A DNA stretch of 64,000 nt, taken from NCBI RefSeq assembly GCF_000428105.1, contig NZ_ATZH01000009.1, forward strand, positions 62,001 to 126,000. The letters are read 5' to 3'. The DNA is from Bacteroides pyogenes DSM 20611 = JCM 6294. GTDB taxonomy: Bacteria; Bacteroidota; Bacteroidia; Bacteroidales; Bacteroidaceae. Under the pieces are notes generated by a model. The model had not been told where the DNA came from, did not search any database, and was given only the letters and a program-made list of their open reading frames with translations. Both the position numbers and the translations under genes were made by a program. Below, one piece after another: positions 10,957 to 64,000 of this stretch (its first letter is position 1; each line of letters begins with the position of its first letter).

Positions 10957-11016
10957 ATTCGGATATACGCCGATGGAGATAGATATCTATCGCCGTAAGC
11001 ATATATAGACAGATTA

Positions 11017-11087
11017 GTTTCCCACTGGGGAAACAAAAGTTTCCCTTAATGGACACAAAAGTTTCCCCAGTGGGAAACTCTTGTGTC
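11017..11087. repeat. Array of GTTTCCC...GGGAAAC palindromes, 22-bp period (site 1)
   Basis: Three 18-bp units start at 11017, 11039 and 11061, exactly 22 bases apart, with AAAA between them. The first (GTTTCCCACTGGGGAAAC) and the third (GTTTCCCCAGTGGGAAAC) are exact reverse complements of each other, and each is itself an inverted repeat. The middle unit is decayed in its second half. The third unit sits in a longer palindrome (11052-11067 with 11072-11087, one mismatch). The same design occurs at 58231-58314. No gene overlaps it. Confidence 0.85.
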
Positions 11088-43831: not shown

Positions 43832-43985
43832 TATATATACTCATGGGTGGTGACTATATATACTCATGGGTGATGACCATATATACTCACCGCGCTGACT
43901 ATATATACTCATGGGTGATGACTATATATACTCACCGATGCTGACCATATATATGCACCGGGCCGGCTACATACACCGCGTCGGG
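43832..43985. repeat. 23-bp tandem repeat with two alternating unit types
   Basis: Six recognisable units and a decayed seventh start at 43832, 43855, 43878, 43900, 43923, 43946 and 43968. Type A is TATATATACTCA followed by TGGGTGRTGAC (units 1, 2, 4). Type B is YATATATACTCA followed by CCGNNCTGAC (units 3, 5, and a drifted 6). Unit lengths are 22-23 bases, so the array cannot be coding. It begins 50 bases after the yifB stop and runs into an IS3-family remnant. Confidence 0.9.
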
Positions 43986-58041: not shown

Positions 58042-58230
58042 CGCTATATTCAGGTATTAATGAGGGCTAAAATACCTTTTTTTTAGTATATGAGTTGTCT
58101 GTACACTTTGAAGACCGGAGCCAACCTCGCTTACAAATTAAGGTGACAAAAGGCGGATTAAAAACGTTCAACCACAATTAAAGAGGCTAAGCTATATAGC
58201 TAAAAACATTCGGCTATATGGTTTTAGTTA

Positions 58231-58314
58231 GTTTCCCTTCGTTGAAACAAAAGTTTCCCGCTGGGGAAACTTTATTTTCCCAATTGGGAAACTTTTGTTT
58301 CCCCGGTGGGAAAC
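58231..58314. repeat. Array of GTTTCCC...GGGAAAC palindromes, 22-bp period (site 2)
   Basis: Four 18-bp units start at 58231, 58253, 58275 and 58297, exactly 22 bases apart, with 4-base A/T spacers (AAAA, TTTA, TTTT). Units 2-4 have near-perfect inverted arms around 4 variable bases; unit 1 is decayed (GTTTCCCTTCGTTGAAAC). The array is bracketed by TATAGCTAA (58195-58203) and its exact complement TTAGCTATA (58329-58337). It lies between divergent operons and matches the array at 11017. Confidence 0.88.
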
Positions 58315-58380
58315 TATTTTGACCTCAGTTAGCTATAAAAAGCTTTATAGATAAGTATCGCAGAATCTTTTATGCATATT

Positions 58381-58412
58381 TTTGCATTTCTTTGCCGGAA
58401 AGAATATATTTG
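58381..58412 (+). promoter_or_regulatory. Bacteroides sigma-ABfr-type promoter of the acyl-CoA synthetase gene
   Basis: TTTG (58381-58384), exactly 20 bases, then TATATTTG (58405-58412), a full consensus match. Transcription should start near 58420, which leaves a short leader to the ATG at 58444 and excludes the longer in-frame start at 58372. Confidence 0.85.
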
Positions 58413-58443
58413 TAGTCATGTTAAACATAAATCTGCGTACTAT

Positions 58444-60513
58444 ATGATTACAAGTCAGTTGCTTCGCCCTGAAAGCATTGTTGTAGTAGGGGCATCCAAT
58501 AACGTGCATAAACCCGGAGGCGCCATTTTGAGAAATTTAATAAGCGGTGGCTTTCGGGGAGCGCTCAGAGCGGTGAATCCTAAGGAGAAAGAGGTGCAGG
58601 GAGTTACGGCTTTTGCAGATGTGAAAGACGTGCCTGATACCGAATTGGCTATTCTGGCTATCCCGGCGGCTATGTGTCCGGAAGCTGTGGAGGTGCTGGC
58701 CAACGAGAAAAAGACAAAGGCGTTTATCGTACTTTCTGCCGGATTCGGCGAAGAGACGCACGAAGGGGCGTTGCTCGAACAGCAGATTCTGGATACGGTG
58801 AACCGTCACAAAGCTTCGCTTATCGGGCCCAACTGTATCGGACTGCTCAATACTTGGCATCACAGTGTGTTCAGCCAACCCATTCCGAATCTTGATCCCA
58901 AAGGAGTGGACTTGATTTCCAGCTCCGGCGCAACAGCTGTCTTTATATTAGAGAGCGCCGTCACAAAGGGATTGCAGTTTAATTCCGTATGGTCGGTAGG
59001 AAACGGCAAGCAGATCGGTGTGGAGGATGTACTGCAATTTATGGACGAACATTTCGACGCGGAAAAAGATTCACACATCAAGCTATTGTATATCGAAAAC
59101 ATCAAAGACCCCGATAGACTTTTATTTCATGCATCATCACTCATACGCAAGGGATGCAAAATAGCCGCCATCAAGGCGGGAAGTTCCGAAAGCGGGAGCC
59201 GTGCGGCTTCTTCGCATACGGGAGCCATAGCCAGCTCAGATTCGGCGGTGGAAGCTCTTTTCCGTAAAGCGGGAATCGTGCGCTGTTTTTCACGCGAGGA
59301 GCTTACTACGGTAGGTTGCGTATTTACGTTGCCCGATTTGAAAGGAAAGAATTTCGCCATCATCACTCATGCCGGAGGTCCGGGCGTGATGTTGACAGAC
59401 GCGTTGAGCAAGGGTGGGCTGAATGTACCCAAACTGGAAGGCGAAGAAGCGGAAGATTTGAAAGCACAGTTGTTTCCCGGCGCTTCGGTAGGCAATCCGA
59501 TCGACGTGCTCGCCACCGGCACTCCCGAACACTTGCGCCTTTGCCTTGATTTCTGCGAAAGCAAGTTTCACAATATAGATGCCATGATGGCTATTTTCGG
59601 CACACCGGGACTGGTGACTATGTTCGAGATGTACGACGTGCTGCATGAGAAGATGCAAACCTGCCGCAAACCGATCTTCCCCATCTTGCCCTCTGTCAAT
59701 ACCGCCGGTGCTGAAGTAGCCGAATTTCTTGCCAAAGGGCATGTGAATTTCGCCGATGAAGTAACGTTGGGCACAGCTCTCTCGCGCATCATGAACGTTC
59801 CTCGTCCTGCCGCTTCGGAGATCGAATTGCTGGGCGTAGACATTCCCCGCATCCGGCGAATCATCGACTCCATCCCCGAAAACGGATACATTGAGCCTCA
59901 TTACGTGCAGGCATTACTGCACGCTGCCGGCATTCCGCTGGTCGATGAGTTTGTTTCGGACAATAAAGAAGAAGTTATCGCTTTCGCACGCCGTTGCGGA
60001 TTCCCCGTAGTAGCGAAAGTGGTGGGTCCGGTACATAAATCGGATGTAGGCGGAGTGGTGCTCAACATCAAAGGAGAGCAACATCTGGCTCTCGAATTCG
60101 ACCGCATGATGCAGATTCCCGCTGCGAAAGCCGTCATGGTGCAGCCTATGCTCAAAGGAACGGAACTGTTTATCGGCGCCAAATACGAAGAAAAGTTCGG
60201 GCATGTGGTGCTCTGCGGATTGGGCGGCATCTTTGTCGAAGTATTGAAAGACGTCTCTTCCGGCCTTGCTCCTCTTTCTTATCCCGAAGCCTATTCGATG
60301 ATACGCTCCTTGCGCGCGTACAAAATCATTCAGGGCACGCGCGGACAAAAAGGTGTGAACGAAGACAAGTTTGCTGAGATCATCGTCCGCCTGTCTACAC
60401 TGCTCCGGTTTGCCACAGAGATTAAGGAAATGGACATCAATCCGCTGCTCGCCACCGAGAAGTGGGTGATAGCTGTGGATGCCCGCATCCGGATAGAGAA
60501 AAAGGCGGAATGA
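58444..60513 (+). CDS. ADP-forming acetate/acyl-CoA ligase (fused alpha-beta)
   Basis: 689 residues from the ATG at 58444. Domains in order: CoA-binding Rossmann domain ('LLRPESIVVVGASNNVHKPGGAILRNL', 'AILAIPAAMCPEAVEVL', 'KASLIGPNCIGLLNT'), then two succinyl-CoA-ligase-like domains. 'GSRAASSHTGAIASSDSAVEALFRKAGIVR' holds the phospho-acceptor His. A C-terminal ATP-grasp half follows ('GFPVVAKVVGPVHKSDVGGVVLNI', 'LFIGAKYEEKFGHVVLCGLGGIFVEVLKDVS', 'EMDINPLLA'). This is the single-chain ACD form, which converts acyl-CoA, ADP and phosphate to acid, CoA and ATP. It could make acetate or propionate with ATP gain in fermentation. No GNAT domain, so it is not a Pat-type protein acetyltransferase. Single gene with its own promoter and terminator. 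Confidence 0.9.
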   Translation: MITSQLLRPESIVVVGASNNVHKPGGAILRNLISGGFRGALRAVNPKEKEVQGVTAFADVKDVPDTELAILAIPAAMCPEAVEVLANEKKTKAFIVLSAGFGEETHEGALLEQQILDTVNRHKASLIGPNCIGLLNTWHHSVFSQPIPNLDPKGVDLISSSGATAVFILESAVTKGLQFNSVWSVGNGKQIGVEDVLQFMDEHFDAEKDSHIKLLYIENIKDPDRLLFHASSLIRKGCKIAAIKAGSSESGSRAASSHTGAIASSDSAVEALFRKAGIVRCFSREELTTVGCVFTLPDLKGKNFAIITHAGGPGVMLTDALSKGGLNVPKLEGEEAEDLKAQLFPGASVGNPIDVLATGTPEHLRLCLDFCESKFHNIDAMMAIFGTPGLVTMFEMYDVLHEKMQTCRKPIFPILPSVNTAGAEVAEFLAKGHVNFADEVTLGTALSRIMNVPRPAASEIELLGVDIPRIRRIIDSIPENGYIEPHYVQALLHAAGIPLVDEFVSDNKEEVIAFARRCGFPVVAKVVGPVHKSDVGGVVLNIKGEQHLALEFDRMMQIPAAKAVMVQPMLKGTELFIGAKYEEKFGHVVLCGLGGIFVEVLKDVSSGLAPLSYPEAYSMIRSLRAYKIIQGTRGQKGVNEDKFAEIIVRLSTLLRFATEIKEMDINPLLATEKWVIAVDARIRIEKKAE

Positions 60514-60576
60514 GGATATCCGGGGTGATCAATTTTATCCGGACTGCAAGGTTGTTTGCAGCTCAGTAAACTAAAA

Positions 60577-60615
60577 AAGTGAGGGCGAGTTCTAATCTCA
60601 CCCTCACTTGCTTTT
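60577..60615 (+). terminator. Terminator after the acyl-CoA synthetase gene
   Basis: The stem AAGTGAGGG (60577-60585) pairs with CCCTCACTT (60601-60609), and the inner GAG/CTC extends it past one mismatch. A T-rich tail follows on + and an A run precedes it, so it can serve both strands at this convergent junction. Confidence 0.85.
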
Positions 60616-60773
60616 ATATGCTCTAATCAATCTTTAATAAAGACTTTCAAAAGAAACGCGGTAATTTTGTCGACGAGAAAACATGCTATTGGACTATCAA
60701 CCCGTGTTAGTTCTATTTCCAGCATTTCAATTGTTTTGCCAAATTCCCTATTTCTTCCGAAAGATCTTTTTAC

Positions 60774-62390
60774 TTAAGCGCCACAGCAAATATATCCTTT
60801 TCTTTCTTTTCCGTCTTTACTTGTATAAATGAATGTTGCCCAGATTTTTCCATCACTGTTTTTCAATACTTTAAATGATTTTGCAGTAGTAGTGATGAGT
60901 GAAGAATATGGATCTAACCCATAAACATAAATCCTAATATTACTTTTTTCACCTACTTCCTTATCTTCCAATTCCATAAAAACAATGCCTTTTCTAGGGC
61001 TTCTCTGCTTAAACCCTAATTGTTTTGGAGATTGTATAACTTCCATATCCGAAACAGAGATGGAACTACCATCAATTACTAAACGCTCTTTATCGTCAGA
61101 CATGATTTTCTCATCCAACGAAAAGGCCTTTTCAGCCGCTCCTTCTTCCGATGCTTTCAGAATAACGGTAATCTCTTCCTCCTGATTGTTCTCCTTGTCT
61201 TCAACAGCTACTGTCGCTTCAATCTCTTCCTCCTGGGGAATTCCGGTGATAAGAAGTACGCCGTTCGATTCGGTAACTTCTATCCCGTCATAATCCGAAT
61301 AGGCTTCATAATTTCCGCTGCCTGATAGAATTTTGACTTCCACGCTCTTCGGTTCTCCTTTTTTACCGGAAATTGTTACCATGTTTGTTTCCAATTTCAA
61401 CTTAATAAGCTCTTTGTCGATTGTTTTATCGCAGAAGTAGCCATAATGTATCACCCCGTCTTTTTTATAGCTGAAGATAGCCCAGATATTTTCTCCGTCA
61501 TTTTGAATGATTTCTAAATCGACAGCCTCTTCAGTCGGATTATAGTACATACTATATGCATAAATCGCTTCTGTTTTCTTTCCGACACTCAAATCTCCTT
61601 TGAATGAAATCTGCAGGCTGTATATCGAATAGTATGTCCATCCATATGAATATTGTCCGTCTTCCAATTTTCTGACAGGTGTGCTATTATCCCTATCCTT
61701 GCTTTCACCGTCAAAGAAATAACGCCGTTTGCTGTCCGCTTTTATTTCAGCAAGAAACTCTTCGGGGAAAGGATTTGTAGTGACCGCTACTTTCACCGGG
61801 AGGGAAGCAGTGAAACCTGCTTTGTCTTTTATGGTAACAGAGCCGGAGAAAGATTCCTCTTTCGCTATCGCTTCGATGGTTATCTCTCCCTCTCCTGTGA
61901 CATTGACTTTTATATCCCGGTTGTCGGATTCGGCTTTGTAACCGCCGTTCCCTTCGGAGATATTTACTTTTATCAACTTGCGGTGTCCTGCCAATATTTT
62001 CATTTCAACTTCTTCTTGGCTGAACTTTATTTTATCGGTAAGATATACGCTGACGGGAAACTTCAGATACTTGGAGTTCTTATCGGACAAAACCAATGCC
62101 GCCTCCCCGATCGCTTTTCCTTCCAGAGAAACTTTGTTGTCGATAATTTCGGCTGTAACAACATCTTCGTTGGTAGAAAAAACGTTGTATTCTCCACCGC
62201 CTTCCAAGATGTCGATACTGACTTTATTGTCCGTACCGATCTTGACTTTTATGGGATCTTCTTTTATTTTCAGTTCGGGCAACGGAGAGGCAATCTCTTT
62301 TCTTTCTTTCTCATTTTCATCGGAACACCCGGCTATACCGAATGAAAACAGCATAATACATGAAATAGACAGATATTTATATAGTTTCAT
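60774..62390 (-). CDS. Multi-domain Ig-like lipoprotein with an internal duplication
   Basis: 538 residues, lipobox IAGC (Cys22) followed by Ser-Asp-Glu, a surface-export pattern. Ig-like repeats lie at about 38-118, 120-204 and 327-413, each with a 'IL.G.G.Y...S.n..v' core. Between and after them lie two copies of another module (about 208-321 and 425-537). Both end alike: 'DGENIWAIFSYKKDGVIHYGYFCD' and 'DGKIWATFIYTSKDGKERKGYICC'. No catalytic motif. It lies 23 bases after the GH18-like gene in an apparent PUL, so a surface glycan-binding role is likely. The repeat style is shared with the lipoprotein at 44556-45482. Lys/Glu-rich composition. Confidence 0.78.
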   Translation of the reverse strand: MKLYKYLSISCIMLFSFGIAGCSDENEKERKEIASPLPELKIKEDPIKVKIGTDNKVSIDILEGGGEYNVFSTNEDVVTAEIIDNKVSLEGKAIGEAALVLSDKNSKYLKFPVSVYLTDKIKFSQEEVEMKILAGHRKLIKVNISEGNGGYKAESDNRDIKVNVTGEGEITIEAIAKEESFSGSVTIKDKAGFTASLPVKVAVTTNPFPEEFLAEIKADSKRRYFFDGESKDRDNSTPVRKLEDGQYSYGWTYYSIYSLQISFKGDLSVGKKTEAIYAYSMYYNPTEEAVDLEIIQNDGENIWAIFSYKKDGVIHYGYFCDKTIDKELIKLKLETNMVTISGKKGEPKSVEVKILSGSGNYEAYSDYDGIEVTESNGVLLITGIPQEEEIEATVAVEDKENNQEEEITVILKASEEGAAEKAFSLDEKIMSDDKERLVIDGSSISVSDMEVIQSPKQLGFKQRSPRKGIVFMELEDKEVGEKSNIRIYVYGLDPYSSLITTTAKSFKVLKNSDGKIWATFIYTSKDGKERKGYICCGA

Positions 62391-62413
62391 AACTTCCTGT
62401 TTTTACTAAATTA

Positions 62414-63829
62414 TTACTTCCAATCTTTCGGATATTTCTTCCCGTCGAACACGAGTTCGTCGTCGTAAAAGGCTCGTGCTATGCGTTGCATAGATGTCAA
62501 TTGCCCATATTCGAAATTCCAGCGATTGGGGTCCATCGCAAAAATCATATGTGAACCGTATCCGTTTTTTCTCATCTGTACTAACTGGCTTTCGTATGCC
62601 CAATATCCCCGGCTATACTCCTGAGAGTGGAGCCCCATATTCATTTTAGGCATACCCGGAAAGTAACGACCTAAATCGGAAGATCCGCCATAATCATGCA
62701 ACGCATAGTCTACAAATTCACCCGACTGTTTGCCATCTACTGCCGGTAGCCCATAAGTTGTACTGTACGCATAAGCAATGACCCACCTGTCCGGCTGTGC
62801 CATTTTAACCTCGTAACATAGGCGTGCGGCAGCTTCTTGCGATGGAAATACGAATCCCGGCGTAATGTTTTGAGTCTCGTATTTTGAATACTCGTCGTCT
62901 ACAAAGATTCCGTCCAGATTATAGGCGTCGCACATGGCTTTTACTTCTTGTGCGAAAGCTTTTGCCGTTTCGTCTGCCAAATTGGCGATACCCGAACGGT
63001 CGTGATTGCCCAAGATTCCGAGTATTACTTTCATCCCTCTGTCTTGTAACGGTTTCAGATAATGTTCGCGTTTGTCGAGAATCGCCTGTACGTTCTCATT
63101 ATTATATATGTATACGCGCCCTGTCTTTTCGTCATAATTGATGTTGGCAGAAAAGATTATCAATACGTCGATCAACGGTTTCCCGCTTTTCTTTAGCGTA
63201 AAGCTCAGATTATTCAGCGGATTCGTATCGTTCACCTCCATGCAGCTGAATACCTTTATGCCGCTCTCTTTTTGGCAGTCGGGCAATCCGGTCAGATCTT
63301 TTACAAAGATCAGCCTTGTTTCATCTTCTTTGGCTAACTTGAAGTTACCTGAAGTTACTTTCATGCGTAAGGGAATTACATAGCTTTTATCCGTAGAAAG
63401 CGTTCCGTCAGAGGTAAAAGAGATTTTCAATCCCGACGATTTCATTTCTCCGGCATTCAGCGTGATAATACCTTCTTTATCGAAAGTGACATGTTGTTCC
63501 GGAAAGGCTTCATAATCGGAATTATTATTTGCATTATACGTATCTAATACAGATTTGTCATAAGTGGCGGTAACACTACTGTTAGCCGAGGACTTTTTAG
63601 GAACATTCACAAACAGTTCGGTGCTCCCTTCGTTACGAAATTCTGTAACAGTAAACATGCGTTTACCGTTTATATCGTTGATAAACGCTAATTCTTCACT
63701 ACTGACAGTATAGTTTCCTTCATCTACTTGGCCTATTTTTATATCGTCATTCGTACAAGCGGCCAAACAGGCGGTCAAAACGAATGCCATCAGCCAATAT
63801 TGCGGTTTGATAAACTTGATTCTTTTCAT
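62414..63829 (-). CDS. DUF1735-GH18 lipoprotein, endo-beta-N-acetylglucosaminidase-like
   Basis: 471 residues from the ATG at 63829, lipobox LAAC followed by Thr-Asn-Asp-Asp. Residues about 55-180 form a DUF1735-type beta domain. Residues 190-470 are a GH18 TIM barrel: 'DVLIIFSANINYDEKTGRVYIYNNENV', 'GMKVILGILGNHDRSGIANL', the active strand 'YNLDGIFVDDEYSKY' and 'VDYALHDYGGSSDLGRYFPGMPKMNMGLHSQEY'. D311 and E313 fit the catalytic DxE; the earlier Asp of DxxDxDxE is Phe309. This architecture matches Bacteroides N-glycan endoglycosidases such as BT_3987. It should release N-glycans at the chitobiose core on the cell surface. Confidence 0.88.
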   Translation of the reverse strand: MKRIKFIKPQYWLMAFVLTACLAACTNDDIKIGQVDEGNYTVSSEELAFINDINGKRMFTVTEFRNEGSTELFVNVPKKSSANSSVTATYDKSVLDTYNANNNSDYEAFPEQHVTFDKEGIITLNAGEMKSSGLKISFTSDGTLSTDKSYVIPLRMKVTSGNFKLAKEDETRLIFVKDLTGLPDCQKESGIKVFSCMEVNDTNPLNNLSFTLKKSGKPLIDVLIIFSANINYDEKTGRVYIYNNENVQAILDKREHYLKPLQDRGMKVILGILGNHDRSGIANLADETAKAFAQEVKAMCDAYNLDGIFVDDEYSKYETQNITPGFVFPSQEAAARLCYEVKMAQPDRWVIAYAYSTTYGLPAVDGKQSGEFVDYALHDYGGSSDLGRYFPGMPKMNMGLHSQEYSRGYWAYESQLVQMRKNGYGSHMIFAMDPNRWNFEYGQLTSMQRIARAFYDDELVFDGKKYPKDWK

Positions 63830-63858
63830 TTTCCGTATTTTAAAGTAATTTGAAAAAG

Positions 63859-64000
63859 TTATTTGGCAGGCAACTCTATGGCTTTCCAAGTCAAAGGTTT
63901 GGATGATGCGATATTATTTCCATTGTTAGTATGGTCTTTGACAACAATACCGGCCCCTTCGTCGAATTTCCAATAAGCCACCAATCCTTCCGCTTCGGGA
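63859..64000 (-). CDS. C-terminus of a LamG-like (DUF1735/LamG type) lipoprotein, partial
   Basis: Read on the - strand from the right edge, an open frame of 46 codons ends in TAA at 63859. It reads PEAEGLVAYWKFDEGAG, then IVVKDHTNNGNNI and PLTWKAIELPAK. 'GLVAYWKFDEGAG' and 'DHTnNGN' are the start of a LamG/concanavalin-like domain, yet here they occur just before the stop, as in PUL proteins where a DUF1735 domain is followed by this short segment. It lies 29 bases upstream of the GH18-like gene in the same direction, so it belongs to the same PUL and probably binds glycan. Most of the gene is outside the window. Confidence 0.8.
   Translation of the reverse strand, partial: PEAEGLVAYWKFDEGAGIVVKDHTNNGNNIASSKPLTWKAIELPAK

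Follow-up and report, generated by a model that had tools for sequence, protein, structure and literature searches.

The array of short palindromes at positions 58231-58314 of the window, by which is meant the whole 64,000-nucleotide stretch of DNA that was analysed, is probably one copy of a dispersed family of phased palindromes, bound in register by a putative dimeric protein and used as a docking site by an IS3-family insertion sequence. In Proteobacteria, palindromes of the dispersed kind have been described in detail, and many of them are tied to RAYT transposases. In the mechanism proposed here the family would consist of dispersed, mainly intergenic and helically phased arrays, most often of four dyads placed 22 bp apart, with each dyad providing the binding site for one protein dimer. 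Several dimers could then stack on one face of the DNA to give a single nucleoprotein complex, and selection would retain the half-sites and their phase and little else. Either this complex or the phased DNA itself may act as the landmark for an IS3-family transposase that inserts next to arrays, the element keeping step with the repeat and pointing its 3' end towards the array.

What does the array look like? Its units, like all the palindromes described here, are recorded without strand; they start at 58231, 58253, 58275 and 58297, which confirms the four palindromes on an exact 22-bp period of the preliminary description. The conserved GTTTCCC and GGGAAAC arms that were also described are less uniform than had been thought. 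The motif GTTTCCC-N4-GGGAAAC occurs without mismatch in two of the four units, those at 58253-58270 (GTTTCCCGCTGGGGAAAC) and 58297-58314 (GTTTCCCCGGTGGGAAAC), with one mismatch (TTTTCCC) in the unit at 58275-58292 (TTTTCCCAATTGGGAAAC) and with two in the unit at 58231-58248 (GTTTCCCTTCGTTGAAAC), where the right arm reads TTGAAAC. The palindrome that is shared among arrays is instead GTTTC-N8-GAAAC, and this fits all four units, the first without any mismatch. The third unit is asymmetric, combining a TTTA linker with TTTTCCC, and the same asymmetric unit recurs in many other arrays. Two further dyads lie in phase to the left, namely the palindrome GCTATATAGC at 58191-58200, with its dyad 44 bp from that of the first unit, and the near-palindrome GGCTATATGG at 58212-58221, with its dyad 22 bp away. 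The local structure at 58191-58314 is one of six phased dyads, two of the TATAT type and four of the GTTTC type. Across the window there are 11 matches to GTTTCCC-N4-GGGAAAC at up to three mismatches against 3.15 expected, a number that was reached by none of 100 shuffles of the window, and the phased-palindrome score of the four units is 50, where roughly 0.9 Mb of shuffled sequence reaches no more than 31. An Rfam search of the window returned a tRNA as the sole match. The array sits between divergent genes, which from their translations are a minus-strand TonB-dependent receptor-like gene and a plus-strand gene resembling an ADP-forming acyl-CoA synthetase.

The array had also been seen as a small mobile unit bracketed by TATAGCTAA and TTAGCTATA. 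These nine-base words are indeed present and mutually inverted, as the ends of a miniature mobile unit might be, but both are missing from the orthologous site in Bacteroides pyogenes DSM 19673 (G034), the nearest relative found to the genome of the window (G000), despite the array being retained there. The left word is part of one of the six phased dyads: it overlaps GCTATATAGC, exactly 44 bp from the dyad of the first unit. A target duplication and an empty site were looked for and neither was found, and a miniature element bounded by these words is hardly credible.

The design recurs throughout the 3.43-Mb draft genome of the window, in which pattern searches give 54 exact matches to the single 7+7 unit and 43 to the two-unit array with 22-bp spacing, against none for the reversed control, and in which it is present at no fewer than 27 places. 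Four is the commonest number of units, in 17 of these 27 loci and in 19 of 24 in G034. The GTTTC arrays are dispersed and mainly intergenic, and those that fall in open reading frames of at least 100 aa do so in frames assigned by length, a crude criterion, and many of these frames are probably spurious. Of 59 other genomes in the genus, 17 also carry a two-unit GTTTC array, as do three genomes from two further genera in the family; it is absent from all 41 other sampled families of the order. The gene context of the GTTTC family is mixed, so no common regulatory role is visible. The GTTTC half-site raises the idea of a parS- or Noc-like site; this seems unlikely, as the spacing of such sites differs and the arrays are dispersed. 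A literature search on GTTTCCC/GGGAAAC, Bacteroides REPs and phased palindromes, mostly outside subscription journals, returned no match.

The window itself holds a second GTTTC-family array at 10995-11078, where a TATATA unit (10995-11012) lies in phase one period to the left of GTTTC units at 11017, 11039 and 11061; there may be a degenerate further unit at 11083. Palindromes centred on TATATA also form a second phased family of their own, present in both G000 and B. pyogenes, as in the array with a 23-bp period at 43872-43958 (ends approximate), which recurs at the orthologous position in B. pyogenes (G034 C2:333441). Where TATATA dyads occur near GTTTC arrays in G000 and G034, all 18 occurrences, some of them sites that are counted in both genomes, are separated from the closest unit dyad by 21-25 or 44-45 bp.

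A sequence-independent scan, which looks for runs of four like palindromes with constant spacing and in which known arrays score 46-56 and shuffled DNA no more than 31, was applied to 2.4 Mb comprising the synthetase loci of 80 species together with B. pyogenes. At a score of 36 or above the period was 22 in 63 hits and 23 in nine, with every remaining period combined accounting for 11. Within the 80-species loci only (1.04 Mb), and at a score of 40 or above, periods 22 and 23 made up 21 of 29 hits. These tandem palindromes at 22-23 bp are built from many unrelated palindrome sequences across the 80 species, and four segments of E. coli K-12 (200 kb) gave no hits at either period. No gene family was common to the neighbours of arrays in distant species, orthologous array sites being found only among close relatives. 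It is possible, and we put it forward tentatively, that Bacteroidaceae and Prevotellaceae share a design and not a sequence, consisting of about four palindromes on a 22-23-bp grid, whose sequence changes from lineage to lineage, of a fast-evolving family of dimeric binders that would build phased complexes on the chromosome, and of IS3 elements that would follow the arrays and co-evolve with every new palindrome.

When orthologous array sites from less closely related species (L041/L282/L272 and L271/L274) are compared without gaps, changes affect 17 of 170 arm positions (10%), 64 of 136 inner bases (47%), 25 of 56 linker positions (45%) and 209 of 360 flanking positions (58%), where arms, inner bases and linkers are in one register and the flank value is an upper bound. 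Between G000 and G034, 13 array pairs differ at 7 of 550 arm positions, 24 of 440 inner bases and none of 168 linker positions; the pooled flank figure of 25% for these pairs is inflated by ungapped alignment and is not usable. The distance from one GTTTC to the next is 22 in most cases, with the dyad spacing tolerating one base either way (12-14). Linkers are mostly AAAA, TTTT, TTTA or TAAA in G000 and are free in other species. The preliminary description held that selection or copying acts on the arms, and both appear to operate: selection on the arms is supported by the comparison between species, and the likeness of units within a species implies copying or homogenisation as well. Arms and spacing are thus kept elsewhere in the genome and at orthologous sites, and the claim survives the comparison that might have overturned it.

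At the B. pyogenes orthologue of the window locus there is a five-unit array in the same intergenic place, within which the inner asymmetric unit is inverted relative to G000, and the surrounding intergenic DNA, like the bracket words, is not conserved. Wherever the flanks of an array could be aligned between G000 and G034, at about 16 sites, the array was present in both genomes.

Because arms and period are kept whilst inner bases, linkers and flanks have diverged, contact between DNA and protein is favoured over pairing in RNA. Half-sites that are retained on a period of two helical turns, with the bases between them free to change, would be needed for dimers to stack along one face of the helix, and in this indirect way the comparison lends support to the earlier suggestion of protein-binding half-sites on a single face. 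The alternative, that the arrays act as RNA elements whose tandem or foldback hairpins serve as terminators or mRNA stabilisers, would draw on the predicted fold of the window array as RNA, which is one long hairpin of -45.8 kcal/mol with z = -7.8, on four other arrays (z from -2.9 to -6.8) and on the placing of the TATATA-type arrays in B. pyogenes, where, in small numbers, none of 19 lies between divergent genes and nine lie between convergent ones. However, the fold is strong since any tandem palindrome folds back on itself, and the window array lies between divergent genes. Pairing at inner positions is no higher than in shuffled controls in the B. pyogenes clade and weakly higher in others, changes in inner bases and linkers have no visible counterpart on the opposite side of the array centre, and other species have not retained the long-range pairing. 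The strong hairpins described at the outset therefore stand as a computed property of the window array, without inner covariation behind them; they are probably a by-product, and a function as RNA is improbable.

Some arrays also differ in arrangement between the sister genomes. Between L022 (1469-1552) and L172 (2164-2247) an inner 26-bp unit lies in opposite orientation between inverted outer units, and an inner unit is apparently inverted between L012 and L158 as well. The arrays at L008 1484-1567 and L024 1436-1519, compared with L221 and L210, have exchanged flanks between the sister genomes, the breakpoint being the left edge of the L008/L024 arrays in what is one case in two draft assemblies. 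Arrays may serve as rearrangement breakpoints. Such inversions and exchanges would follow if the units were recombinase sites, but template switching during replication can also invert small segments inside palindromes, the flank exchange is one event in draft assemblies and the arrays have no linked recombinase, which makes this explanation very improbable. At L210 (10950-13000) about 2 kb of extra sequence lies beside the B. pyogenes array and is absent at the corresponding G000 edge (L024).

The second component of the preferred reading, the docking of an insertion sequence, comes from a repeat that adjoins several arrays and proves to be the right end of an IS3-family element. The element encodes an OrfA of 122 aa and an OrfB of 300 aa, and scores 215 against a cut-off of 160 with the IS3-family model NF033516. 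Membership rests on the two reading frames, on the rve fold of OrfB and on 3-bp target duplications, which were taken from homologues in the complete genome G191, the G000 contigs breaking at this point. A genome-wide search for the right end in G000 gave 11 matches, one of which is the transposase end of the contig carrying the gene and another a 30-base right-end fragment at a locus without an array. The remaining nine, right ends or relics of at least 86 bases, all adjoin arrays within 55 bp, including the degenerate array of L223, and in every G000 case the same end of the element faces the array. The terminal motif TTAAACCACA marks decayed ends at L010 and L016, each again adjoining an array. 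A filled site in G000 (L023) can be set beside its empty counterpart in B. pyogenes (L211). The distance from the IS end to the first unit in G000 is 9-12, 30-33 or 55 bp. The values show phasing (R = 0.94 for a 22-bp period, with periods of 20-23 fitting about equally and none of 100,000 uniform draws as phased), although they are measured to the outermost detectable unit, which can itself favour quantised values.

Seventeen other Bacteroides genomes encode homologues of OrfB, at 43-66% identity. Where a locus extends far enough past the right end, the strongest repeat lag is in most cases 22 or 23 bp, and in most of those the signal exceeds the shuffled maximum. The palindromes beside the homologues vary, with GTTTC/GAAAC at L240, L292 and L293, GTATC/GATAC at L289, TTCTC/GAGAA at L291, TTGGCA/TGCCAA at L294, ATGTACAT at L305 and L307 and CACCCGGGTG in G191; at several loci (e.g. 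L296, L301, L302, L308) there is no array within about 200 bases of the IS end. G191 contains 13 CACCCGGGTG arrays at 23 bp, of which about ten consist of exactly four units, and six of the 13 have no IS. In five of its seven IS copies the interval between the IS end and CCGG is 25, 26, 26, 27 or 48 bp; another copy lies some 0.8 kb away from an array, and one adjoins an array by its opposite end. Inspection by eye of six copies revealed 3-bp duplications in five (CAT, GTA, ATT, ACA and CTT). The existence of arrays without an IS, together with in-register copies flanked by duplications, argues that the arrays pre-exist and that the element inserts into their register. Taken with the phase-locked TATATA and GTTTC dyads, in-register insertion points to a common nucleoprotein scaffold. 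Solo right ends of 95-98 bp occur at L023 189-284, L218 7459-7554 and L005 1227-1322, with one pair (L017/L218) flanked by a repeated sequence of 15-16 bp, and the right end carries several GTCAAC repeats about 33-37 bp apart. Several G000 draft contigs end in the IS beside an array, which serves as a practical warning.

How, then, do the arrays relate to systems that are already known? The BIME/REP clusters of enterobacteria and pseudomonads are extragenic palindromes in ordered clusters and are targets of IS3-family elements (PMC1525189, PMC3733652). The present arrays resemble them in being short, extragenic palindromes, dispersed in many copies, with ordered clusters, mixed orientation, lineage-specific sequence and IS3 targeting. 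They differ in having 18-bp units on a strict 22-23-bp period, usually four to an array, in keeping only 5-bp arms between species and in the lack of a RAYT in G000. The GTAG or CGTC tetranucleotide at the foot of the stem, a REP feature as defined in PMC3733652, is absent from the array linkers, and PF01797 gave no match in G000 and was present in five of 16 other array-bearing genomes. With both the foot tetranucleotide and the Y1 transposase wanting, the arrays are not filed under REP/RAYT despite their BIME-like working. REPIN-RAYT systems (PMC3116915, PMC6006769) are likewise short, intergenic, dispersed palindromes with several families per genome, but most of the array-bearing genomes examined, like G000, have no PF01797 protein.

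It could nevertheless be argued that the arrays are selfish REP-like repeats, spread by a transposase acting on palindromes and with any host role secondary. Their dispersed, extragenic and species-specific character, mixed unit orientation and IS3 targeting are all REP/BIME biology, and inner sequences are shared between units of different arrays in one species. This explanation is unlikely, given that a Y1/RAYT transposase is missing from G000 and from 11 of 16 other array-bearing genomes, that the stems lack a constant GTAG/CGTC foot, that alignable arrays are present in both sister genomes and so show little recent mobility, and that a strict 22-bp phase is not among the REP features in the literature examined. 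Nor do the arrays behave as CRISPR or ordinary tandem repeats, as their linkers are 4 bp and their inner bases diverge while the arms stay. The BrickBuilt MITEs of Porphyromonas gingivalis (PMC4596501) are likewise short repeats in tandem (23 nt), scattered through the genome of a member of the Bacteroidales. Identity with them is rejected, as BrickBuilt elements are direct repeats inside IS5-type terminal inverted repeats, and none such surround the arrays inspected here.

The closest parallels for the insertion sequence are IS1397, ISKpn1 and ISPsy8, IS3-family elements that insert into REPs (PMC1525189). The present element shares with them an IS3-family transposase and an insertion specific to clusters of palindromic repeats. 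Unlike them it inserts beside the array, no more than one or two periods from the first intact unit, in phase and with one end towards the array, and its homologues use different palindromes in different species. As far as the work cited in PMC1525189 is described there, the transposase itself has been reported as the binder for IS1397 and ISKpn1, and by comparison the candidate binder of the present arrays may be a protein of the host or, to some extent, the transposase.

Returning to the docking-site reading, we infer that a protein binds the dyads, that this protein is a host protein and not only the transposase, and that the arrays have a role for the host. By analogy with the BIMEs of E. 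coli, this role would most likely be in chromosomal or 3'-end architecture rather than in promoter control. Against such a reading stands the variation of the palindromes from species to species, and inside a single genome too, as with the GTTTC and TATATA families of B. pyogenes; this pattern would not be expected from one conserved host factor. Moreover, within a species the units closely resemble each other from array to array, and some of this likeness is accounted for by copying or gene conversion.

These observations indicate that the Bacteroidaceae possess a widespread class of palindromes with a strict helical register and several families, for which no RAYT is required, and that the register of the arrays is read by an IS family. 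The arrays offer a direct handle for finding the putative DNA-binding protein and, together with the IS, a natural system of targeted transposition for asking how an IS3 transposase finds its landmark.

B. pyogenes contains more repeats with a 22-bp period that are built from other units (GCTTCAGCCTGACGGAGC, CAAAGCCCGCCGCCTTT and others), at about 16700-16930 of L163, 1591 of L144 and 9307 of L164. The region of the window array is 84.7% identical to B. pyogenes on the synthetase side, which is more diverged than most array flanks. Over the whole of the synthetase side, 58363-64000, identity is about 85-92%, as against about 94-98% for most array flanks, a divergence that suggests past recombination of this segment.
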